Shown here: positions 3,862 to 52,152 of the stretch, piece by piece
Layout of the letters: each line of letters starts with the position of its first letter
Numbering within the stretch: the first letter of the stretch is position 1
Virus record (IMG/VR): IMGVR_UViG_3300021197_001711
Location: 1 to 52,152 of that record
DNA length: 52,152 nucleotides
Reading direction: 5' to 3' (one strand)
Origin: a virus
Notes under the pieces: model-generated
The model's input: only the letters and a program-made list of their open reading frames with translations
Databases searched by the model: none
Told to the model about the DNA's origin: nothing
Translations under genes and position numbers: made by a program

Positions 3862-4297
3862 ATATAATGTGAAGGTTTGTAAAGTGATTGATGGTGATAC
3901 AGCTGACGTCGATATAGATCTCGGTTTTGGTATATGGCTTAGAAAAGAACGTGTTCGGATTATGGGTATTGATACACCTGAAAGTCGAACCAGGGATAAG
4001 GTTGAAAAAAAGTTCGGGCTTGCAGCTAAAAAAAGATTAAAAGAACTGCTCGGATCCAAATCAGTACTGAAAACGCAGATTGATAGATCTGGTGAAGATG
4101 CGAGAGGAAAGTTTGGCCGCATATTAGGAGACTTCTTAGTATACGATAGTATGAACGATATGTGGAGACCGGTGACGCAGGTATTGATAAATGAAGGTCA
4201 CGCCGTTCTGTATAACGGGCAGAGCAAAGATGATATTCGAGACGAGCATTTAGCTAATAGAGAAAGATTGATTGCTGAAGGAGTAGTAACGCTTTAG
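3854..4297 (+). CDS. Staphylococcal-nuclease-like (SNase/thermonuclease) protein
   Basis: 147 residues with a clear SNase fold signature: VIDGDTADVDID near residues 11-22, then RIMGIDTPESR, then GKFGRILGDF. The catalytic residues of SNase fit as R35, D40 and E43, with the second arginine at R89; D15 matches the calcium aspartate. There is no signal peptide or membrane segment, so it should act inside the infected cell on DNA or RNA. It starts within the last codons of gp16 (8-bp overlap) and precedes gp17, so it is co-expressed with the terminase. Possible roles are host DNA breakdown, clean-up of DNA ends during packaging, or nucleotide recycling; none is proven. Confidence 0.85.
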   Translation: MYEYNVKVCKVIDGDTADVDIDLGFGIWLRKERVRIMGIDTPESRTRDKVEKKFGLAAKKRLKELLGSKSVLKTQIDRSGEDARGKFGRILGDFLVYDSMNDMWRPVTQVLINEGHAVLYNGQSKDDIRDEHLANRERLIAEGVVTL

Positions 4298-4357
4298 ATA
4301 TACCCTTTATGGGCTACACCATGATTATAATAGTGAAACTGGAAGAGGTCAACAGAT

Positions 4358-5995
4358 ATGCCGAAAATATACCTAGGTAATCAAAACCTAAAAGCAGCCG
4401 GCGTCCAGGTTGAGTTCACCCAAGAGCAAGTACAAGAGTATATAAAGGTAGCGACAAACAGTCAGTACTTCATTAAAAACTATACTAAGATTGTAAGTGT
4501 TGATGAAGGTCTTATACCATTTGCTACTTGGGAATTCCAGGACAAGATGCTGGAGACCTTTGAAGACAATCGTTTCTCAATATGTAAGCTCCCAAGACAG
4601 GTAGGCAAAACAACAACGGTTGGTGCTTATCTACTTTGGAAGATATTGTTTACCGAAGACTACAATATAGCAATCCTTGCTAACAAAAGATCCCAAGCGA
4701 TTGAAATACTAGGTAGAATACAGTTAATGTACGAACACCTGCCTGATTGGATGCAGCAAGGTGTGTTAGAATGGAACAAAGCAAGTCTAAGACTTGAAAA
4801 CGGTTCTGAAATAATAGCATCCTCCACATCGTCTAGCGCGATTCGTGGTACGTCTCAGAACTTGATATACCTTGATGAGTTTGCGTTCGTACCAAATAAT
4901 ATACAAGAAGAGTTTTTCACATCAGTATTTCCTACCATTTCATCTGGTAAAACTTCAAAGGTAATTATTACATCTACACCGAACGGTATGAATCTATTCT
5001 ATAAGATATGGGTAGAAAGTGAGGAAGAACGTAACGATTACGAAAGAGTGGAAATACACTGGTCGGATGTACCAGGGAGAGACGAAGAGTGGCGTGAAGA
5101 GATTATACGCAACACGTCTGAAGAACAGTTTCGTCAAGAATTTGAATGTGAGTTCTTAGGTAGTACGAATACTCTAATTCATCCGACCAAGCTAAAAGCG
5201 CTTACATTTAGATCGCCTTTATATACGAAGAATAATTTTATTTGTTATGAAGAGTCGCAACGAGATCGCACATACGTAATTGTTGCTGACACATCAAGAG
5301 GGCTTGGCCAAGATTATTCTGCATTCGTAGTTTTTGATATTACAGAGTATCCATATAAAGGTGTCGGTCTGTATCGGAGCAAGGAAATATCTCCGATGCT
5401 GTATCCAAATGTTATATATGACGCAGCAAAGCAGTATAACGATGCGTTCGTATTGATAGAAATAAACGATATAGGTGAGCAGGTATCAAACATATTATTT
5501 CATGACTTTGAATACGAGAATATATTTAGAGCATCGCTTAACAGTGGATCCCAATACGTATCGTCAGGGTTTGGCGGTGGTAGATCTCAGTTAGGTGTAA
5601 GAACAACTAAGTCAGTCAAGCGTCTTGGATGTTCAACTCTAAAAGATATGATTGAGCAAGACAAGCTCATATTTGAAGATTATGACTATATTACCGAGCT
5701 TTGTAACTTTGTACAAATAAAAGAAAGTTACCAAGCTGAAGAAGGCTTTCATGATGATATTGTAATGTGTACGGTGTTGTTTTCATGGCTTGTCAGACAA
5801 GACTATTTTAAAGAACTGACTGACAGCGATCTCAGAAAGAGATTATACGAAGATAACCAGAAAATGATTGAAGACGAGATGTTACCATTTGGCTTTTTTG
5901 ATGATGGTCGTGAAGACGACAGTATAATAAGCATCGATACTGATAGATTGGGGTGGTCTCTACCGCCTTCTGAGATGATAGATGATAAATGGTAA
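4358..5995 (+). CDS. 17: Large terminase subunit gp17 (packaging ATPase and nuclease)
   Basis: 545 residues (T4 gp17 is 610). It powers DNA translocation into proheads and cuts concatemers. The N-terminal ATPase has a Walker A motif LPRQVGKTTT at about residues 78-87, Walker B LIYLDEFAF with D173-E174, and a coupling motif IITSTPNG near 205. The C-terminal RNase H-like nuclease has VADTSRGLGQDYS around residue 310, IEIND near 367, and the final acidic pair in HDDIVMC near 465. It starts after a 60-bp gap from the SNase gene with a GAAGAGG ribosome site. A TATAAT at 4326-4331 lacks a good -35, so I do not call a promoter. Confidence 0.95.
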   Translation: MPKIYLGNQNLKAAGVQVEFTQEQVQEYIKVATNSQYFIKNYTKIVSVDEGLIPFATWEFQDKMLETFEDNRFSICKLPRQVGKTTTVGAYLLWKILFTEDYNIAILANKRSQAIEILGRIQLMYEHLPDWMQQGVLEWNKASLRLENGSEIIASSTSSSAIRGTSQNLIYLDEFAFVPNNIQEEFFTSVFPTISSGKTSKVIITSTPNGMNLFYKIWVESEEERNDYERVEIHWSDVPGRDEEWREEIIRNTSEEQFRQEFECEFLGSTNTLIHPTKLKALTFRSPLYTKNNFICYEESQRDRTYVIVADTSRGLGQDYSAFVVFDITEYPYKGVGLYRSKEISPMLYPNVIYDAAKQYNDAFVLIEINDIGEQVSNILFHDFEYENIFRASLNSGSQYVSSGFGGGRSQLGVRTTKSVKRLGCSTLKDMIEQDKLIFEDYDYITELCNFVQIKESYQAEEGFHDDIVMCTVLFSWLVRQDYFKELTDSDLRKRLYEDNQKMIEDEMLPFGFFDDGREDDSIISIDTDRLGWSLPPSEMIDDKW

Positions 5996-20427: not shown

Positions 20428-21084
20428 ATGAAACTCATATGCGAAATAAACGAAAATCTAGAGTACGTAGCTGAAGAGACTGAAAGTGGTGGTAAGAGCC
20501 ATCATATCAAAGGTGTGTTCATGCAAGGTAATCTCAAGAACAGAAATGGTCGTGTTTATCCCATGGAAGTTTTAGAAAACGAGGTTAACCGTTATACTAA
20601 AGAGTATATAGACCGTAAGAGAGCTTTTGGTGAACTTGGCCATCCATCTGGTCCAACCATTAATCTAGATCGTGTGTCGCATATGATAACAGAGCTTAAG
20701 AGAGAAGGTGATAACTTTATTGGTAAGGCCAAGATCATGGATACCCCGATGGGGAATATCGTAAAGAATTTGATGGACGAAGGCGCTACCATTGGTGTAT
20801 CGTCACGTGGTATGGGATCACTAAAGCAAAACAGAAGCGGTATTGCTGAAGTGCAAAAAGACTTTATGCTGGCTACTGCAGCAGATATTGTAGCAGATCC
20901 ATCTGCTCCTGACGCTTTCGTTGAAGGTATAATGGAAGGTGTCGAGTGGCTTTATGATGATCGCGCTGGTTGGAAACAAGTACAAATGAGTGAAATGCTT
21001 AGAGACGATCTGAAAACTAAATCTGCCAAACAAATTGAAGAGAATAAAATCAAAATATTTGAGAACTTCCTCTCAAAACTATAA
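20428..21084 (+). CDS. 21: Prohead maturation protease gp21
   Basis: 218 residues, as in T4 gp21 (212). The serine protease degrades the scaffold and trims gp23, gp67 and others after prohead assembly. The conserved histidine is in RAFGELGHPSGPTINLD (H72) and the nucleophile in GATIGVSSRGMGS (S125 or S126), the herpes-type prohead protease arrangement (peptidase family S80). The start MKLICEIN is near the typical family N-terminus. It is followed by scaffold and capsid genes exactly as in T4. Confidence 0.92.
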   Translation: MKLICEINENLEYVAEETESGGKSHHIKGVFMQGNLKNRNGRVYPMEVLENEVNRYTKEYIDRKRAFGELGHPSGPTINLDRVSHMITELKREGDNFIGKAKIMDTPMGNIVKNLMDEGATIGVSSRGMGSLKQNRSGIAEVQKDFMLATAADIVADPSAPDAFVEGIMEGVEWLYDDRAGWKQVQMSEMLRDDLKTKSAKQIEENKIKIFENFLSKL

Positions 21085-26731: not shown

Positions 26732-27283
26732 ATGTCTGAAGTAAAGAAGAAAGGTAAAACACAATATGTAAATAACAAGGACTTTCTAGCAGCCCTTGTT
26801 GTATATCGTGACCAGGTTGCTGAGGCAGCTAAGAATGATGCACCCCGGCCTCAAGTACCAAACTACGTAGGAGAGTGTGTAATGAAGATTGCAACCCACC
26901 TCGCACGTAAGCCTAACTTCATCAACTATACTTTTAAAGATGAGATGATCTCGGATGGTATTGAGAACTGCTTGCAGTATATTGATAACTTTAATCCTGA
27001 TACATCAAAGAATCCTTTCGCATACTTTACGCAAATCATTTGGTTTGCCTTCCTGCGAAGAATACAAAAAGAAAAGAAACTATTATATACCAAGTACAAG
27101 CTCACCGAACAGATAAATGTGATGAACATAACTTCTGATCGTCAGGACCACGATGCCAATGCTGACTTCAATGACAGTGTAAAAATGACTGAGTGGTCTG
27201 AAGAATACATGCATAACTTCATCAAAGACTTTGAAGAAAACAAGCGTCGACAAGTTAAGAAGCGTGAGAAAAAATCGAAATGA
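26732..27283 (+). CDS. 55: Late-transcription sigma factor gp55
   Basis: 183 residues (T4 gp55 is 185). It replaces sigma70 on host RNA polymerase and reads the TATAAATA boxes found through this window; the sliding clamp gp45 activates it. The region KDEMISDGIENCLQYIDNFN followed by NPFAYFTQIIWFAFLRRIQK is the sigma region 2-like core (about residues 67-112). The C-terminal tail is basic and, in T4, carries the clamp-binding end. It has a good host-type promoter (26681) and GAAGGA ribosome site, and overlaps gp47 by 4 bp. Confidence 0.93.
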   Translation: MSEVKKKGKTQYVNNKDFLAALVVYRDQVAEAAKNDAPRPQVPNYVGECVMKIATHLARKPNFINYTFKDEMISDGIENCLQYIDNFNPDTSKNPFAYFTQIIWFAFLRRIQKEKKLLYTKYKLTEQINVMNITSDRQDHDANADFNDSVKMTEWSEEYMHNFIKDFEENKRRQVKKREKKSK

Positions 27284-30612: not shown

Positions 30613-31557
30613 ATGTCAAAACAATATGCATTTTCCGAAACTTTCTATTCTGTGCAGGGCGAAGGTCACTACACAGGGGTGCCATCTGTATGGCTTCGGT
30701 TCTTTCTTTGTAATCTACAATGTGATGGATTTGGTCAAGATGATCCGACCAATCCTGATACATATGAGCTACCGTATAAGGACTTCGATAAGCTAGACGT
30801 GAACGATATTACTGAGCTACCTGTTTGGGAGAAGGGTTGTGATAGTTCGTATTCGTGGTCTAAGAAGTTCAAACATCTTCAACAAAAGCAAACAGCAGAG
30901 GAAATTGTTGAGACGTTAAGGCAAGAAATGATTAACGAGTTCAATCCAAACGGAAACTATCAACATCCTATGTCAGGTAGATCGGCACATTTAGTACTCA
31001 CAGGTGGTGAGTCATTGATGAAGCATGCCCAACAGGCAGCCGTGGATCTGATCAACGTATATCATGCAAAGCAGACGCATGAAAGACCATGGAACATAAC
31101 ATGGGAAACGAATGGCACTCAAGCGCTTACAGAAGATTTTACAAGGGTATTTGGGAACAGAGGTCTATATTCTGGTGAACTATTCTTCTCATGTAGTCCT
31201 AAACTATTTACAGTATCTGGTGAGAAACCCAAGAAAGCTATACGACCTGATGTAGTTGCTGAGTATGAAAATCTTGGTAAATCAGTACGGCAAAGAACAC
31301 AAAGAGATCAAGCTCCTATAGGTCAGCTTAAATTTGTAATGGGTCCTAAGAAAGAGCAGTGGGAAGAACTCGATGAAGTCATACATCAGTTTAGACAAGC
31401 TGGAGTTAACTGGCCAGTATGGATAATGCCTGTCGGGGCTACTGTAGAAGGACAAAAAATGATCGACGGTGATGTTGCCAACATAGCCCAGGATAGGGGA
31501 TACTGTGTATCAGCTCGAGTTCATACTTATATGTGGGGCAACGTGATAGGAGTTTAA
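30613..31557 (+). CDS. queE: QueE-like 7-carboxy-7-deazaguanine synthase
   Basis: 314 residues. QueE is a radical-SAM enzyme that turns 6-carboxytetrahydropterin into 7-carboxy-7-deazaguanine (CDG). The start FSETFYSVQGEGHYTGVPSV and the LRFFLCNLQC motif are characteristic. LTGGESLM (near 129) is the SAM-binding GGE motif and ETNGTQ follows near 160. The cluster cysteines are spaced unusually: C33-x3-C37, with the next cysteine only at C76 (GCDSSYSW), so a loop of about 38 residues is inserted where ordinary QueE has two residues. Neighbours QueD, FolE and DpdA support a role in DNA modification. Confidence 0.88.
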   Translation: MSKQYAFSETFYSVQGEGHYTGVPSVWLRFFLCNLQCDGFGQDDPTNPDTYELPYKDFDKLDVNDITELPVWEKGCDSSYSWSKKFKHLQQKQTAEEIVETLRQEMINEFNPNGNYQHPMSGRSAHLVLTGGESLMKHAQQAAVDLINVYHAKQTHERPWNITWETNGTQALTEDFTRVFGNRGLYSGELFFSCSPKLFTVSGEKPKKAIRPDVVAEYENLGKSVRQRTQRDQAPIGQLKFVMGPKKEQWEELDEVIHQFRQAGVNWPVWIMPVGATVEGQKMIDGDVANIAQDRGYCVSARVHTYMWGNVIGV

Positions 31558-31558
31558 C

Positions 31559-32125
31559 ATGAAACTAAGATGTACAAAATCATATTTTAATTTACCCGTT
31601 GCTCATATGCAATGGTTTGATACAGACGAATCTGGCGAAGCGTGCACAGGTCCTTGTTCAAAGTGGCATGGATACGATCGATCGGTTCATTTTGAGTTTG
31701 CTGGTGAAGCAGACGAACATGGTTGGATTGTAGGTTTCGGTGACCTCAAACCAATTAAACAATTCTTGGAATTCTATTTCGACCATACAGCTCTTATATC
31801 AGCTGATGATCCTCGGATAGAAAAAGCAGTGGAAGCTCGTGAAAACGGTCTTGTTGATCTGAGGATATTGCCTTATGGTGTGTCTATGGAGATGAGCTCC
31901 ATATTCATATGGGAACAGGTAAATCCTTTTATCTATTCTGTCACTGATGGTAGAGCTTATATTTCAAGAATAGAATGCAGAGAGCATGAAAAGAATTCTG
32001 CGTTTATAGAAATAGAAGAAAAGATAGCACGTAAGCAAGGTAAGCAATCAGAAAAATATCTTGTCCAGATATCCGACTGGCGTAATTTTATCAAGCCTGG
32101 GGACATACTCAAAAGGTATAGCTAG
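31559..32125 (+). CDS. queD: QueD-like 6-carboxytetrahydropterin synthase (long phage form)
   Basis: 188 residues, longer than bacterial QueD (about 120). It makes 6-carboxytetrahydropterin from dihydroneopterin triphosphate. T-fold features: zinc histidine in VAHMQW (H16), catalytic-type cysteine and zinc site in CSKWHGYDRSVHFEF (HGY where the bacterial enzyme has HGH), GWIVGFGDLKPIKQFLE, and FDHTALISADDP with the catalytic Asp-His. The PYGVSMEMSS segment matches the family's substrate-binding Glu region and ISRIECREHE the last strand. The HGY variant is what I associate with phage QueD proteins. It begins 1 bp after queE. Confidence 0.82.
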   Translation: MKLRCTKSYFNLPVAHMQWFDTDESGEACTGPCSKWHGYDRSVHFEFAGEADEHGWIVGFGDLKPIKQFLEFYFDHTALISADDPRIEKAVEARENGLVDLRILPYGVSMEMSSIFIWEQVNPFIYSVTDGRAYISRIECREHEKNSAFIEIEEKIARKQGKQSEKYLVQISDWRNFIKPGDILKRYS

Positions 32126-32157
32126 CAGTCCCTAAATTATTGTTTTTATATATACTC

Positions 32158-32184
32158 GTGTTCGTAGGAGATCCCTACGTTCAC
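32158..32184 (+). repeat. 27-bp perfect-arm inverted repeat upstream of micro-ORF
   Basis: GTG-TT-CGTAGG, loop AGATC, CCTACG-TT-CAC. The arms pair over 3 + 6 bp around a symmetric TT/TT mismatch. No T run follows, so it is not a standard terminator; it sits 31 bp before the micro-ORF at 32216 and could be an operator or leader hairpin. Confidence 0.55.
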
Positions 32185-32215
32185 TTTCGTAACTATATCC
32201 CAAAAGGAGAAAAAA

Positions 32216-32320
32216 ATGTCCACTAAAAGTGAGACTATGTACGCGCTCGCCCAAACTTTAGTAATTACTTGTGTTATTACACTTATGCCCGCAGCTGTTA
32301 TATATTTGTCGTTGGTATAA
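32216..32320 (+). CDS. 34-aa predicted membrane micro-protein
   Basis: ATG 32216 is preceded by a strong AAAAGGAGA ribosome site (32203-32210). The 34-residue product has a short polar N-terminus (MSTKSET) and then one hydrophobic segment over residues 8-34 (LAQTLVITCVITLMPAAVIY), a likely transmembrane helix. It fills part of the apparent gap between queD and folE. I do not recognise a family. Single-helix phage micro-proteins can be holin or antiholin parts, host inhibitors or exclusion factors, but nothing here decides between them. Its stop overlaps the next small frame (TAATG). Confidence 0.55.
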   Translation: MSTKSETMYALAQTLVITCVITLMPAAVIYLSLV

Positions 32321-32448
32321 TGATCAAGCACGCTCTATTTTACATGTTGTTTTGTATGCACCTCTACGTTGAAAATGGGGAGTTTCCTAGAACCTTTCTC
32401 AAAACCAATGTGGAGGTGATTCAACCTAAAACAAGGTTGACTAATTGA
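32320..32448 (+). CDS. Possible 42-aa micro-protein coupled to the membrane micro-protein
   Basis: ATG 32320 overlaps the previous stop as TAATG, the arrangement used for translational coupling across this genome. The frame runs 42 codons: a hydrophobic start (MIKHALFYMLFCMHLYVENG) then a polar basic tail. It has no ribosome site of its own. The -35 box of the folE promoter lies in its last codons. It may be real or a chance frame. Confidence 0.35.
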   Translation: MIKHALFYMLFCMHLYVENGEFPRTFLKTNVEVIQPKTRLTN

Positions 32449-32465
32449 AGTATATCTTATATAAT
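32437..32465 (+). promoter_or_regulatory. Near-consensus sigma70 promoter before folE
   Basis: TTGACT (32437-32442), 17-bp spacer, TATAAT (32460-32465): 5/6 and 6/6 with ideal spacing, one of the two best host-type promoters in the window. Transcription would start near 32472, giving a leader of about 143 bases before folE. Confidence 0.8.
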
Positions 32466-32492
32466 AGTTGTAATGTTTAACAATGTAGTGAA

Positions 32493-32500
32493 TATAAATA
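32493..32500 (+). promoter_or_regulatory. Late-type box in the folE leader
   Basis: Exact TATAAATA inside the folE leader, 115 bp before the chosen start. Its context (AT-rich, far from the gene) makes function less certain than for the structural genes, but it could keep the modification genes expressed late. Confidence 0.45.
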
Positions 32501-32509
32501 TTAGAGCAA

Positions 32510-32590
32510 CAAGGTGTTCCGGAGGTTGCGCTTGCAATGAGCTTTTCTCCGGCCCAGGCCTGACCGTCCTCGCCTCTCTACGGTCGTTAA
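32510..32590 (+). promoter_or_regulatory. GC-rich structured RNA leader upstream of folE
   Basis: In an AT-rich genome this non-coding stretch is GC-rich and holds nested pairings. CCGGAG (32519-32524) pairs with CTCCGG (32547-32552), enclosing GTTGC/GCAAT (32525-32529 with 32534-32538, loop GCTT). GGCC/GGCC (32551-32554 with 32557-32560) is an alternative pairing. GACCGT (32562-32567) pairs with ACGGTC (32580-32585). It lies between the sigma70 start and the folE ribosome site, the usual place for a riboswitch or attenuator. It does not match the tRNA layout, nor the THF-II pattern as I remember it. Function unknown. Confidence 0.5.
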
Positions 32591-32614
32591 ACTCAACCCG
32601 AGATGGAGAATACA

Positions 32615-33286
32615 ATGTCGAAAATTAATCCGGAACTAGGCCGTGAGGTAAACAAGTACCTCGATACTTTAGGTATCAATACTCCCATAACTCCTTTAGT
32701 AAAAGAAGATCGTGAAGAAAAGCTGCGTAAAGTGGCTGAGCTCACACAGGAGATGTTAGAAGTACTTGGTCTTGATTTAACTGACGATTCATTAGAAGAA
32801 ACACCAATGCGTGTTGCCAAGATGTATGTTGACGAAATCTTTTCTGGTCTTCGTTATGATACCTTTCCAAAGTGTACTACTGTTGAGAACAAGTTTTGCC
32901 ATGGTGAAGAATTTGTTCTCGAGAAGAACATTACGATGTATTCTGATTGTGAACACCACCTTAGACCTATCATTGGTAAGGCACACGTTGCATACATTCC
33001 AGGAGAAAAGGTCCTTGGTCTATCTAAGCTCAATCGTATCACACAATACTTTGCACAACGTCCTCAAGTGCAGGAACGTCTTACTCAGCAAATTGCTCAT
33101 GCAATAGCGTATATTACTGAATCTGATAATGTCATGGTTGTTATAGACGCTGGTCACACTTGTGTCTCACAGCGTGGTATTAAAGACACAAACAGTACTA
33201 CAGTTACAGCTTGTTGCCTTGGTAAATTTGGAGCGAAAGATAGTGAGCTCCGTAAAGAAGTGATGAATAATATCAACCGCGGTTGA
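32615..33286 (+). CDS. folE: GTP cyclohydrolase I FolE
   Basis: 223 residues from ATG 32615, which has GGAG at 6-bp spacing; the upstream in-frame ATG at 32603 has no ribosome site because that GGAG lies inside it. FolE converts GTP to dihydroneopterin triphosphate, the first step toward folate and 7-deazaguanine. Active-site blocks are intact: SDCEHHLRPIIGKAHVAYIP with zinc Cys and His, GLSKLNRI, QVQERLTQQIA, and AGHTCVSQRG with the second zinc cysteine. With QueD and QueE next door its likely job is DNA modification rather than folate supply. Host-type promoter and structured leader lie upstream. Confidence 0.95.
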   Translation: MSKINPELGREVNKYLDTLGINTPITPLVKEDREEKLRKVAELTQEMLEVLGLDLTDDSLEETPMRVAKMYVDEIFSGLRYDTFPKCTTVENKFCHGEEFVLEKNITMYSDCEHHLRPIIGKAHVAYIPGEKVLGLSKLNRITQYFAQRPQVQERLTQQIAHAIAYITESDNVMVVIDAGHTCVSQRGIKDTNSTTVTACCLGKFGAKDSELRKEVMNNINRG

Positions 33287-36184: not shown

Positions 36185-36196
36185 TATTATATTATG
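36185..36196 (+). promoter_or_regulatory. Possible RegA operator at the gp45 start
   Basis: The gp45 leader reads GGATATATTATATTATG and the gp44 leader TACTATATTATG: both share TATATTATG with the start codon inside. In T4, RegA represses clamp and clamp-loader genes by binding AU-rich RNA over the start. RegA is encoded at 38201 here. Assignment is by analogy. Confidence 0.4.
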
Positions 36197-36865
36197 AAAC
36201 TGACACAGAAAACACATACAATGCTCAAGAACTATGCGACTATCAATCAGTCTCTGTTCGTAAGTAAGGGCAATGTAATAAAGACCATCTCTGAGATGAA
36301 GTCTGTAATGGCTGAGGTCGAAGTCCAGGAAATGTTTCCTCGTGACTTCGGCATCTATGATCTCAATCAATTTCTGGGTGTTGTAAGTTTGTTTGAAGAA
36401 CCGGATCTTGACTTTGACACAACTTTCGTTCGTATCAAAGGAGCAGAGAATGCAAGTAGTGATTACTTCTACGCAGACAAAGCTACCATACGAACCTTAC
36501 CTCCTGAAAATTCCTTTGAGTTGCCTGACGTTGTCGAGACCTTCACTATTACCGATAAGGTAATCAAAGGGGTGATGCAAGCTGCTAACGTACTTCAACT
36601 ACCTCAGATAGGTATTATTGGTGACGGTAGTGATATTGTTATCAAAGCATTGAATAGTGCGAACAACACAAGCAATTCGTTTCAATTCAATCTTGGTAAG
36701 ACAAGCAAAAACTTTAAGATGTATTTCAAGACTGATAATCTTAAGATGATGATGGGTACATACGATGTCTCTATCAGCAGTAAAAAGATCACGCAGTTCA
36801 AAATGAGTGAAGGTAATCTCACATATACTATTGTTAATGAAGCGTCTTCAGTTTATGAAGGCTAG
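36194..36865 (+). CDS. 45: Sliding clamp gp45
   Basis: 223 residues (T4 gp45 is 228). The trimeric ring tethers DNA polymerase gp43 and also activates late transcription through gp55. Recognisable: MKLTQKTHTMLKNYATINQS, then FGIYDLNQFLGVVSLFEEPD near residue 55, the central LPDVVETFTITDKVIKGVMQ linker region, and the last strand MSEGNLTYTIVNEAS. It heads the conserved gp45-44-62-regA-43 order. The weak ribosome site overlaps a TATATTATG sequence that may be a RegA target. Confidence 0.95.
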   Translation: MKLTQKTHTMLKNYATINQSLFVSKGNVIKTISEMKSVMAEVEVQEMFPRDFGIYDLNQFLGVVSLFEEPDLDFDTTFVRIKGAENASSDYFYADKATIRTLPPENSFELPDVVETFTITDKVIKGVMQAANVLQLPQIGIIGDGSDIVIKALNSANNTSNSFQFNLGKTSKNFKMYFKTDNLKMMMGTYDVSISSKKITQFKMSEGNLTYTIVNEASSVYEG

Positions 36866-48502: not shown

Positions 48503-48832
48503 ATGATAGCAGTGCAAGAGACAACTAAATGGGATTTGGACTTTCAACCAAATTTCATTTATCTCTTGGACGGTGATAAGGCTCATGCCTATATAAATGG
48601 TAGTGGAGAACAAATCTACTTCAAGAAGCCATTAAAATTCAGCAAAGCCTATCGCAAGTTCAAGAAACTCAAAGTCAATCCATTTGACGTAGAGATTGAT
48701 TCGACACTCATCGAAGTGAAAGGATCGAAAGGACAAATATATTATGTGGATCCTGAAAAGCGTACATGTACTTGTACAGGATTTTCATTCAGAGGTAAGT
48801 GTAAACATATTGCGGAGGCATTAGGTGAGTAA
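48503..48832 (+). CDS. SWIM zinc-finger-like protein, 109 aa
   Basis: The C-terminal part has RTCTCTGFSFRGKCKHIAEA, a C-x-C-x(n)-C-x-H pattern of SWIM zinc fingers (residues about 89-104), which bind nucleic acids or proteins. The N-terminal part includes FIYLLDGDKAHAYINGSGEQ and a basic LKFSKAYRKFKKLKV segment. Good AGGAG ribosome site. Part of the early cluster; a DNA- or RNA-binding role is likely but not specified. Confidence 0.7.
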   Translation: MIAVQETTKWDLDFQPNFIYLLDGDKAHAYINGSGEQIYFKKPLKFSKAYRKFKKLKVNPFDVEIDSTLIEVKGSKGQIYYVDPEKRTCTCTGFSFRGKCKHIAEALGE

Positions 48833-49040
48833 TCAAAGACCAGGAAAGTTTAAGCCAGCTTCAATGCAAGGTGGCGATAATATGACAACTGTCAACTTTT
48901 TCAAGTATGCAAAAGAGATGCTTGAAGAGATTGGCCAGAATGATGCATCGTTCTATTTTGAGCAAGTAGAAGAACATCTCCGATCAGGCAAGAGCTTGGC
49001 ATCAGACAAGAATACAATAGCAAGGATCTTAGGCTTATGA
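48825..49040 (+). CDS. Small protein, 71 aa (GTG start)
   Basis: GTG 48825 lies within the end of the SWIM gene and has GGAGG at good spacing. In-frame ATGs at 48864 and 48882 are alternatives; the second has GGTGG upstream. The product (FFKYAKEMLEEIGQNDASFY followed by EEHLRSGKSLASDKNTIARI) is helical and unremarkable. It overlaps the protease gene by 4 bp. Unknown function. Confidence 0.55.
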   Translation: MSNQRPGKFKPASMQGGDNMTTVNFFKYAKEMLEEIGQNDASFYFEQVEEHLRSGKSLASDKNTIARILGL

Positions 49041-50215
49041 GCGAATACGTACTAGCAAAAACTCTACCATCCCCACCTGACCTCAGAGACATACCTTATG
49101 TGTCTCCGTTTACAGAGAGCGAACTACCTACCTCAGTAGACATGAGAGGCGATGTATTTGAAATAGAAGATCAAGGTCCTATTGGAAGCTGTGTGGCAAA
49201 TGGAGTTGCTAGTTCGTGCGAGTTAATCGCAAATAGAAATAACAAGCCGATTGATCTCAGTCGTATGTTTCTCTACAATGCCACTAAGGCTTACGAAGGC
49301 AGGCTTGGAGAGGAAGGTCTATATACCAGAAATGCTTATCACATAGCATACAAGTATGGGATGCCCACCGAAGAGTATTATCCTTACGACCTTAGTAAGG
49401 ACAACATCGATCCTCCAACAGAGGCCTATCAGCTCGCCTCAGAGAATAGGATTAATCGATACGAAACCGTTACTCCAGGTCGCGTTAGACTCTATAGAAG
49501 TCAAGATGAGATTGACTTTATTAAATTCAATATAAAAGCAGCTCTACATGAAGGCTTGCCAGTTGGTATAGCTGTCAACATTATGACAGAGATTCTCGGT
49601 TTAACAGGACCTTGGCAACTACACAGCTATCCTTCGTATGGGGATTTTACCAATGGAAGAGATCTGGGTGGCCATTACATGCTTATAGTTGGATATGATG
49701 ACGACTGTGGTAAGTTTCTTGTTCAGAACAGCTGGGGTACAGATTATGGTGACAATGGTTACTGCGGTCTACCTTACGCAATTGTAGGTCATCCTTTCTT
49801 CGAAGGTTGGGTAGCAAGAAGTTTCAAAGATATGATCATACCAGAAGAGAAGGGTATAAAGCTCGAGCAACAAAGTAGGTATAGTCTGACAGCAAGGATT
49901 GTACCAGAAGAGGAAGAGATAGGTACTACGGTTAAGATATGGGTTGGTGCTGTTGATGGTGAAGGTAAAACCTATATCAAACAACCAGTAGAAAGTATTG
50001 ATAACGGTATACCTGGCTACTCGATGCCAGACGAATGGCTTCCGATCGAGCAGAGTGGACTTGTGCCGGCCTGTGACAACTACGTGCTCGACGAAGACAA
50101 CTACATCAACGTGATAAGATTCTTTGATCTGTCTGTAGTGAATGATGTGAGAGTGTACGTTGGGTATGGCGTCGACGAGCAGTCGATGAAGCTGAATAAA
50201 ATAGTTACATTATAA
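49037..50215 (+). CDS. Papain-family cysteine protease (C1A-like), 392 aa
   Basis: Complete papain-type active site: oxyanion glutamine in IEDQGPIGSCVANG (Q46), nucleophile C52, histidine in LGGHYMLIVGYDDD (H213), and asparagine in FLVQNSWGTDYGDNGYCG (N231). The fold opens with VDMRGDV, as mature papains do, and there is only a 30-residue N-terminal segment, so no classical propeptide and no signal peptide. Residues about 265-392 form an extra beta-rich acidic domain of unknown type. A papain protease is unusual in a T4-like phage; it might process virion or host proteins. Transcribed with the small genes; overlaps the 71-aa gene. Confidence 0.88.
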   Translation: MSEYVLAKTLPSPPDLRDIPYVSPFTESELPTSVDMRGDVFEIEDQGPIGSCVANGVASSCELIANRNNKPIDLSRMFLYNATKAYEGRLGEEGLYTRNAYHIAYKYGMPTEEYYPYDLSKDNIDPPTEAYQLASENRINRYETVTPGRVRLYRSQDEIDFIKFNIKAALHEGLPVGIAVNIMTEILGLTGPWQLHSYPSYGDFTNGRDLGGHYMLIVGYDDDCGKFLVQNSWGTDYGDNGYCGLPYAIVGHPFFEGWVARSFKDMIIPEEKGIKLEQQSRYSLTARIVPEEEEIGTTVKIWVGAVDGEGKTYIKQPVESIDNGIPGYSMPDEWLPIEQSGLVPACDNYVLDEDNYINVIRFFDLSVVNDVRVYVGYGVDEQSMKLNKIVTL

Positions 50216-50218
50216 ATA
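50211..50218 (+). promoter_or_regulatory. Late promoter before the 50250 gene
   Basis: Exact TATAAATA overlapping the protease stop codon, 31 bp before ATG 50250. It marks a switch back to late genes. Confidence 0.82.
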
Positions 50219-50249
50219 TAGGACACTCTATCGATCACGGAAACATCAA

Positions 50250-51194
50250 ATGGCCAAAGTCTATACAGGTTTATCAGCATCCAATCTGAGAGACAGGCCA
50301 GCACGTGCCCAAACGATGCTTGATAAAATAGAAAAAAATGAAGATTTCTATTTGACAGATGGATCTACAGTTAAGATAGATGCAGACAGCAGTGTTGAGT
50401 TTGTTCTAAGTTTGCATGAGCTGCTGAGAACTGGTAATCAGAGAAGATTGTCTGCTGCATCATTCAGAACCACAAGAGGTGTTCCTTTAAAAGTCACTGC
50501 TCTTGGTAAGTCTGGTGAATTTGGTGGCAAAGGGGCAGGTGGTGGAACTGTTGCTGAAGACCGAGCGCTAAGTGATGTGAGAAGTAAATTGATGGCCATC
50601 TTAGAAAAAGAGAAGAAGCCATTTATAAAAGTTAAAGTAGGGAAAGAAATTATTGAAGCAGCCGATATTATTTCCACACCTGGTACACCGAAATCCGACT
50701 TTCATTTTGTTGACGCATCGGGTCAGGAGGTGGCTTGGATATCTCACAAGGACGGTACTACTGCCAAAGCCTATCAACAGTACGGTGGGCTGACAGAATT
50801 GGACAAACTGTTTCCTGGACATCCTGAAATTAGAAAGTTCATTGAAGATACAAAGGCACTTACAAAAGGTCAATTTCAAACAGGTCAATCTTTTATGAGG
50901 CCGTTGAAAGATGATAAGATAAAAAAAGGTGCTGTCTATGGAATTGACTACATGAAGGCAACCGGCCGACAACATGTCAATATGCTTTGTCAAGGAATAA
51001 TGAATCTACAAAAGTCGGGTCAATATTATATCTTAAAATCTTCACACGATATGTCTTCTGGTACACTTCCCACTGCAGACTACAGATGCATGTTGTTTGT
51101 CAGAAAAGGCGACAGAAGTAACTTCGGTGTTGGTAGTGCCAGATATATGGTAGCTCCATATGCATTGAGAAGAGGAACAACTAAAGACATATGA
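50250..51194 (+). CDS. Late-expressed protein of unknown function with a nuclease-like motif, 314 aa
   Basis: 314 residues, no family recognised with confidence. The start MAKVYTGLSASNLRDRPARA is followed by a soluble alpha/beta protein with a Gly-rich loop (GEFGGKGAGGG, about residues 89-99). Residues 145-180 read PGTPKSDFHFVDASGQE and VAWISHKDGTTAKAYQQYGG; the spacing D150...[S/x]-x-K167 resembles the PD-(D/E)xK core of restriction-like nucleases. This is a pattern-level suggestion. The late promoter and tight coupling (ATGA) to a ligase-like gene make the pair worth testing. Confidence 0.6.
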   Translation: MAKVYTGLSASNLRDRPARAQTMLDKIEKNEDFYLTDGSTVKIDADSSVEFVLSLHELLRTGNQRRLSAASFRTTRGVPLKVTALGKSGEFGGKGAGGGTVAEDRALSDVRSKLMAILEKEKKPFIKVKVGKEIIEAADIISTPGTPKSDFHFVDASGQEVAWISHKDGTTAKAYQQYGGLTELDKLFPGHPEIRKFIEDTKALTKGQFQTGQSFMRPLKDDKIKKGAVYGIDYMKATGRQHVNMLCQGIMNLQKSGQYYILKSSHDMSSGTLPTADYRCMLFVRKGDRSNFGVGSARYMVAPYALRRGTTKDI

Positions 51195-52152
51195 AATTTT
51201 CATCCTTCTTAACAGAACAAAAGAATGCTCACATGGAGCACCTAGAAGACATGATCTTCAACGATGGTGTCGATGGTGCGCGTCTTGCTATAAATTCATT
51301 GCGCTCGCTAAGAGATATGCTAGCCGGTGCAAGTGAAAAAGCTGTAAACGTGACGGTAAAATGGGATGGTGCTCCAGCAATCTTTGCTGGCGTTGATCCT
51401 TCTGATGGTAAATTCTTTGTAGCTAAAAAAGGTGTGTTCAATGTCAACCCGCAACTATTTAAAACAGAAGATGATATCAATAGAAGTCTTTCTGGTGACC
51501 TCGCTAACAAATTTAAGATTGCATTACGGGAGTTCTCAAAACTCGGTATTACTAAAGGAATGTATCAGGGAGATCTTATGTTTAGCCGGGGTGATGTTAA
51601 GGTCATCACTATCCGTGGTAGCAAATATTATACTTTTCAACCTAATACTATTGTATATGCTGTACCAGTCGATAGTGCGCTTGGTAGAGAAATCAAGAAC
51701 AGCAAGATCGGAGTTGTCTGGCATACAACATATACTGGATCCAGTCTCCAAAGAATGAAGGCATCGTTTGGCAAAGGTATTGCTAAGAAGATGAAGCCTT
51801 CACGATCTGTTTGGATGGACGATGCAACATACCGAGATGTATCTGGTAATGCAACATTCACAAAAGAAGAGACAGCAGAAGTCACCGAGCTACTATCCAA
51901 AGCTGGTAAGGTCTTTAGAACTATATCTGGTGAAGCTCTAAACGCTATTCGCGATGACGAGGAGTTGAAGCAAAAGATAAAAACATACAATAATACTTTT
52001 GTCAGAGCAGGTGAGCCATTCCCTAAACCTAAAGAGCATGTGAAAGGTTTGTATACGTATATAACGGATTGGTATCAGAAAGAAATAGACAAGAAGAAGA
52101 CGGAAAAAACAAAACAGGTTTGGACAGCAAAGCGTGATGTTGTACTCAAAAA
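51191..52152 (+). CDS. DUF6267-like protein with ligase-type KxDG motif (3' end outside window)
   Basis: The frame opens at ATG 51191, overlapping the previous stop (ATGA), and stays open to the window end (320 codons), so it is truncated. I recognise the cyanophage family annotated as DUF6267: AHMEHLEDMIFNDGVDGARL, VNVTVKWDGAPAIFAGV, KGMYQGDLMF and FQPNTIVYAVPVDSALG. K57-W-D-G60 fits motif I of ATP-dependent ligases and capping enzymes; YQGDLMF (125-131) fits motif III/IIIa; GVVWHTTYTG (174-183) may be near motif IV or V. Nucleotidyltransferase activity is a hypothesis. Function in phages is unknown to me. Confidence 0.75.
   Translation, partial: MKFSSFLTEQKNAHMEHLEDMIFNDGVDGARLAINSLRSLRDMLAGASEKAVNVTVKWDGAPAIFAGVDPSDGKFFVAKKGVFNVNPQLFKTEDDINRSLSGDLANKFKIALREFSKLGITKGMYQGDLMFSRGDVKVITIRGSKYYTFQPNTIVYAVPVDSALGREIKNSKIGVVWHTTYTGSSLQRMKASFGKGIAKKMKPSRSVWMDDATYRDVSGNATFTKEETAEVTELLSKAGKVFRTISGEALNAIRDDEELKQKIKTYNNTFVRAGEPFPKPKEHVKGLYTYITDWYQKEIDKKKTEKTKQVWTAKRDVVLK

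Follow-up and report, generated by a model that had tools for sequence, protein, structure and literature searches.

A predicted CviJI-like endonuclease gene coupled to a tagged, putatively ligase-like DUF6267 gene: a candidate head-cargo module in T4-like phages

The locus and its predicted late control

Two adjacent genes are found at the right end of a 52-kb uncultured virus record (IMGVR_UViG_3300021197_001711), the whole stretch of which (52,152 nucleotides) is called the window here. They are P1, coding for a predicted endonuclease of the CviJI type, and P2, whose product belongs to the DUF6267 family and carries ligase-type motifs. The window is identified as part of a T4-like phage by its terminase, portal, gp21-type protease, scaffold and major head protein, and it also encodes gp41-, gp43- and UvsX-type proteins. 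The stop codon of P1 and the start codon of DUF6267 share an ATGA overlap, and the second frame runs off the end of the window, which holds the first 320 of about 407 amino acids; a full-length homologue is encoded at L004:6866-8089. Both frames and their coupling lie where a first-pass annotation of this DNA had located them. The main features are the following:

50211-50218, + strand: T4-type late promoter box TATAAATA, 32 nucleotides before the P1 start codon
50250-51194, + strand: P1, predicted CviJI-like endonuclease of 314 amino acids (phrog_13937; fold match)
50697-50699, + strand: codon of P1 D150, the predicted catalytic Asp, at the start of strand 151-154 (DSSP)
50742-50750, + strand: codons of P1 S165-H166-K167, an [S]xK element, at the end of strand 160-167 (DSSP)
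51191-52152, + strand: P2, putatively ligase-like DUF6267 protein (PF19782, E=6.5e-85)
51191-51217, + strand: capsid-targeting-sequence-like tag MKFSSFLTE, with a predicted prohead-protease cut after E9
51359-51370, + strand: codons of K57-W-D-G, nucleotidyltransferase motif I
51566-51574, + strand: codons of Q126-G-D128, motif III-like

The promoter box TATAAATA occurs 13 times in the window, always on the + strand, against 3.58 occurrences expected, and none of 100 shuffled sequences reached 13. Since this is far above expectation and one copy lies just before P1, late control of the pair, which the first-pass annotation had proposed, appears credible from the sequence. The factors used by T4-type late promoters, a late sigma factor and a sliding clamp, are encoded in the window as well and agree with that proposal. 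The genes for these factors and for the protease that would cut the tag are:

26732-27283, + strand: late sigma factor, gp55-type (phrog_234, 1.4e-58)
36194-36865: sliding clamp
20428-21084, + strand: gp21-type head maturation protease (phrog_207, 2.7e-80)

P1 and the variable nuclease slot

P1 matched no family in Pfam and NCBIfam, and profile searches with it against PDB and Pfam gave nothing significant. P1 relatives were collected from 112 loci, and residues D150, S165, H166, K167, Q176 and Q177 are invariant in the 54 that were aligned for conservation. In the AlphaFold2 model of P1 (predicted local distance difference test score, pLDDT, 94.5), D150 heads one strand and S165-H166-K167 ends the next, as in PD-(D/E)XK nucleases. 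Among viral structures (BFVD) the model matches the restriction enzyme CviJI (E=1.3e-15, prob 1.00) and the nicking endonuclease Nt.CviQII (E=2.2e-11), and a P1 relative in the S-CAM7 phage record is already labelled 'type-2 restriction enzyme CviJI'. The fold is therefore well supported, and P1 is very probably a DNA endonuclease or nickase, although this activity is predicted from the model. The first-pass annotation had described a nuclease-like core with D150 and K167; both residues hold as numbered, and the fold match narrows the assignment to the CviJI/Nt.CviQII type.

P1 relatives lie between -60 and +150 nucleotides from DUF6267 in 67 of 113 cases, and nearly all others are within about 2 kb; translational coupling is typical, with a spacing of -4 in 25 cases and -1 in 23. 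The constant adjacency of homologues, a point put forward for checking by the first-pass annotation, holds in one direction: P1 is nearly always beside DUF6267, but DUF6267 is more often found behind unrelated nuclease-like proteins, and it has no adjacent nuclease in S-PM2 and P-SSM2.

The upstream position was surveyed in 81 non-redundant loci found via DUF6267 alone, in which upstream genes of at least 230 amino acids were scored; many of the loci studied are fragments on contigs. A D..[SE]xK pattern is present in 51 of 61 of these genes and in 135 of 464 control open reading frames. The slot proteins (19 representatives, ten or more cultured phages among them) fall into eight families without detectable sequence similarity to each other:

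P1/CviJI type: the window, S-CAM9, S-CAM3, S-8S56
S-CAM1 and L014
Syn1, ACG-2014e, S-RIM8, S-RIM12 and L016
Syn19, L034 and L036
P-TIM40 and L029
Melnitz-3 (one member)
L026 (one member)
L031 (one member)

Because the D..[SE]xK expression is loose, the identification of these proteins as nucleases is graded by family: it is strong for P1, moderate where a family has more than one member and no more than suggestive for the singletons. One of the BFVD fold matches of P1 is M4QF91 of S-CAM1, which has the same length (407 amino acids) as SXBG_00153, the protein encoded upstream of DUF6267 in that phage; the two are in all likelihood one protein. This suggests that the P1/CviJI-type and S-CAM1/L014 families share one fold. 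Rare occupants of the slot are HNH-like (L039, L115) and GIY-YIG (L195) proteins, and a minority of loci have genes of other kinds before DUF6267. In L115 (2960-5896), DUF6267 is preceded by three genes in a row, coding for a P1-type nuclease, for another nuclease-like protein (D..SLK) that shares its N-terminal region with P1, and for the HNH-like protein, an arrangement that points to stacked nucleases and exchanged domains.

Site avoidance was examined as a possible trace of what P1 might cut. RGCY, the site of CviJI, shows no avoidance (570 occurrences in the window, 611 expected). AAGCTT is strongly avoided there (1 vs 15.3 expected) and is also scarce in close P1 contigs (G002, 3/15.3; G005, 0/4.5), but not in relatives with other nucleases (352-amino-acid family, 37/39.9; 246-amino-acid family, 52/54.9). 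Nevertheless, other P1-type contigs do not avoid it, and G017 does (1/13.1), although its nuclease is unrelated and a search of 40 of its 42 kb showed no P1. Since the avoidance does not track nuclease type across contigs, it was not used as evidence for P1 specificity; it could reflect host restriction. The window also encodes QueE-like, QueD-like and GTP cyclohydrolase I proteins (30613-33286), which would provide 7-deazaguanine precursors, and neither DpdA nor QueC was recognised among the window proteins scanned. A 7-deazaguanine modification of DNA or tRNA might possibly shield the phage DNA from cutting.

Further upstream, a papain-family (C1) cysteine protease gene (49037-50215; PF00112, 3e-16), unusual for a phage, lies just before the P1 late promoter and is kept in the close relative L004 (4719-5891). 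A small SWIM zinc finger protein (48503-48832; PF04434) has its counterpart there too (4185-4514).

DUF6267: ligase-type motifs and an N-terminal tag

At least 465 of 50,697 phage records contain DUF6267, most of them from T4-like cyanophages of marine origin, and uncultured contigs add hundreds more; a literature search found no paper naming it. Residues K57, D59, G60, K80, Q126-G127-D128, E372-G373 and K385 are invariant in 69 full-length homologues; among these residues is the K57 whose conservation the first-pass annotation had singled out. Read in order, KxDG, K80, QGD, EGxV and K385 give the succession I-Ia-III-IV-V of covalent nucleotidyltransferases, the motifs IV (EG[FY]V) and V (K385) lying near the C-terminus of full-length homologues, past the window end. 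A pattern describing this chain matches 121 of 125 non-redundant DUF6267 proteins, 1 of 545 control open reading frames and 8 of 12500 shuffled DUF6267 sequences; as it was written after the family had been seen, the control rates weigh more than the 121/125. The 13-residue step from EGxV to K is the same as in T4 Rnl1 (NQEGYVSIDRIGNAVKI vs NIEGYVAVMKDGSHFKI), and an insert of about 180 residues, mostly helical, precedes motif IV. The top three PDB fold matches of the DUF6267 model (pLDDT 88.7) are adenylation domains of DNA ligases, though not at significant E values. Altogether it seems fairly likely that DUF6267 is ligase-like, that is, a divergent covalent nucleotidyltransferase.

The first-pass annotation had read the blocks KWDG, YQGDLMF and GVVWHT as motifs I, III and IV. 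All three are present, and the first two can be retained as motif I and a motif III-like element. GVVWHT is ruled out as motif IV, since the C-terminal EG[FY]V and K385 fit motifs IV and V; it forms a separate conserved block with invariant H178-T179.

The N-terminus of DUF6267 carries a tag that is absent from the first-pass annotation. In many homologues a piece of about ten residues (MKFSSFLTE|Q, MKKFSTYLAE|A, MIKFKTFIVE|E) precedes the conserved KNTHMEHLED. It is detachable, because the versions of cyanophage isolates begin straight at MAKNTHLEHLED, and the model shows it as disordered. T4 ipII and ipIII begin with MKTYQEFIAEA, and T4 genetics has assigned targeting to residues 4 and 7 and processing to residues 8 and 10, gp21 cutting after [LI]xE (PMC9026906). 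The DUF6267 tag fits these positions. The pattern [FYL]xx[FY][LI]xE, sought within the first 20 residues, is found only in ipII and ipIII among 128 T4 open reading frames in 99 kb, in none of 62 complete open reading frames of the window and in 0.2% of internal 20-residue stretches, the background. It is present in 81 of 125 DUF6267 proteins and 14 of 64 P1-type nucleases. In Melnitz-3 a tag is carried both by DUF6267 and by the nuclease-like protein encoded before it. The tag is well supported, and DUF6267 is probably head cargo. In our literature search, 'capsid targeting' and 'cyanophage' are joined only by a T4 review.

The gene downstream of DUF6267 codes, in many phages, for an HxGH 'cytidylyltransferase'. 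This protein has been detected by mass spectrometry in virions of S-SM1 (PMC3037559) and S-CREM2 (PMC10665884), and the S-CREM2 protein begins with MKNFSSFLTEA (MKNFSSFLTEADEKQ), which is nearly the tag of the window's DUF6267. The two are naturally fused in L098 (1303-3558), where the tag, DUF6267 and an HxGH cytidylyltransferase-like domain make up one protein of 752 amino acids. What is known from virions is thus a protein with the same tag, S-CREM2 gp154, a member of this downstream-neighbour family. Since no DUF6267 gene lies beside the S-CREM2 cytidylyltransferase, that proteome provides no direct virion evidence for DUF6267. In S-PM2 (L051 5992-7771) DUF6267 is split, p138 holding its N-terminal part and p139, the cytidylyltransferase, being fused to its C-terminal part; this is attributed to a frameshift or a sequencing error. 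Tagged HAD-phosphatase-like proteins (MYFTEFLSEQ..VFDMDETLF; L102 4915-5622, L137 3375-3995, L175 3393-3998), encoded between P1 and DUF6267 or directly before DUF6267, are possible further head cargo. S-CREM2 gp156 (L214 10013-10726), detected in virions by mass spectrometry, resembles a pol-beta-type nucleotidyltransferase (GGNANYNYTPYSDIDLHLVVD) and starts with MKKLISELK.

A possible head-cargo module and its relation to known systems

These observations could be brought together in a late head-cargo module made up of a variable endonuclease and a constant ligase-like partner, a proposal for which we see about as much weight on one side as on the other. P1 would be a CviJI-like site-specific DNA endonuclease or nickase made late together with DUF6267, whose N-terminal peptide would send it into the prohead core and be removed by the gp21-type protease. 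Packaged beside the genome, DUF6267 would then reach the following host together with the DNA. In that cell, DNA of the host or of a rival would be the target of the variable endonuclease. The constant protein would work on ends or nicks in DNA and, in this cut-and-seal role, spare or repair the genome of the phage. The pairing of a rapidly varying nuclease with an unchanging protein that has ligase motifs is best explained by a generic task for the latter, for instance on the ends of DNA. Since the window copy of P1 is untagged, its own presence in the head of this phage can be suggested only tentatively, and P1 may itself remain in the producing cell.

Several results weigh against this proposal. 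For P1, the PDB gave no significant fold match: none falls below E=1.4, and YaeQ and DrdV appear among noise only. The neighbours of P1 are the papain-like protease and DUF6267, without an adjacent cognate methyltransferase, and no methyltransferase was found among the window proteins scanned. The nucleotidyltransferase assignment made by the first-pass annotation keeps its ordered, invariant motif set and a fold ranking headed by DNA ligases, but the top three fold matches, at E 0.12-0.27, are not significant, and the ligase matches as a whole lie at E 0.1-1. Profile searches of DUF6267 against PDB and Pfam gave no significant ligase match, and an hhalign comparison with T4 ligases was without significant result as well. 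Packaging is opposed by the untagged DUF6267 of the isolates S-CAM9, P-TIM40 and Syn1 and by the missing tag of P1, here and in about 78% of its relatives. DUF6267 (T4-GC 71) was not found in the virion proteomes that were covered, although it may already be listed in one.

Alternatively, mobile, free-standing endonucleases of the homing type could use the slot as a landing site, in which case P1 would be selfish and DUF6267 an unrelated resident virion gene, as target or neighbour. The sharing of one slot by very different nucleases, HNH-like and GIY-YIG proteins among them, and the loci with genes of other kinds would agree with this. Yet D..[SE]xK proteins fill the slot far above background, they are typically coupled to DUF6267 by translation, some P1-type nucleases bear the head tag, P1-type nucleases hold this position in S-CAM3, S-CAM9 and S-8S56 alike, and CviJI is not a homing enzyme, so that we consider this scenario unlikely. 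Equally improbable is that DUF6267 is a packaged Rnl1-like RNA ligase which heals RNA at the start of infection, for example tRNA cut by host anticodon nucleases, with P1 acting separately on DNA. The spacing and letters of motifs IV and V do match T4 Rnl1, and one DUF6267 member matches RNA_lig_T4_1 (E=0.015); the best fold matches are nevertheless DNA ligases, none of these matches being significant, and the conserved neighbour is of a DNA endonuclease type. In the head-cargo proposal DNA, rather than RNA, is the presumed substrate of DUF6267.

It is also conceivable that DUF6267 modifies or restrains the nuclease during late synthesis, as an antitoxin-like or NMPylating regulator, and that the tag carries the complex into the head. 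Coupled translation would suit such a role, as would the many untagged P1 proteins next to a tagged DUF6267, since piggy-back packaging would need binding. Nevertheless, a single partner for at least eight unrelated nuclease families would be difficult for a protein-protein inhibitor, and DUF6267 also occurs without an adjacent nuclease (S-PM2, P-SSM2), which makes this reading very unlikely.

If the head-cargo proposal is true, a packaged ligase-like enzyme with a fast-changing endonuclease slot would point to a new way of arming virions for host takeover or phage-phage conflict, and to a counterpart, among bacteriophages, of the restriction enzymes that chlorella viruses package. Its boldest form, in which T4-like phages deliver from the head a polymorphic DNA weapon of swappable endonucleases, packaged with or by a constant, capsid-targeted ligase-like protein that spares or mends their own genome as infection begins, is rather doubtful. 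The tag would also offer a simple sequence predictor of head cargo in such phages, and the slot a source of many new site-specific nucleases.

The closest known systems each share only part of this arrangement. R.CviJI and Nt.CviQII of chlorella viruses have the same fold as P1, and chloroviruses package restriction endonucleases that are presumed to begin breaking down the DNA of the host in the first minutes of infection (PMC7019647). P1, however, comes from a T4-like phage, has about 20% identity over the match and is coupled to DUF6267; from these enzymes, as from type II restriction-modification systems, it differs by having no adjacent methyltransferase. T4 IPI-III and Alt resemble DUF6267 in their N-terminal capsid-targeting tag, late promoter and gp21-type protease gene, features recognised here from sequence alone. 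Their cargo is an anti-restriction protein or an ADP-ribosyltransferase, whereas here it would be a ligase-like enzyme, joined in some relatives by the nuclease, and DUF6267 is not homologous to any T4 IP. With T4 RNA ligase 1 and the ATP- and NAD+-dependent DNA ligases, DUF6267 shares motifs I, Ia, III, IV and V in order, and with T4 RNA ligase 1 also the step from the motif IV Glu to the motif V Lys, but it differs by its lack of a significant sequence or fold score, its long insert and a motif III that reads QGD. Finally, the T4-GC190 cyanophage cytidylyltransferase, a virion protein, is the usual downstream neighbour of DUF6267, bears the same tag and is fused to it in L098, yet belongs to a different nucleotidyltransferase fold (HxGH).

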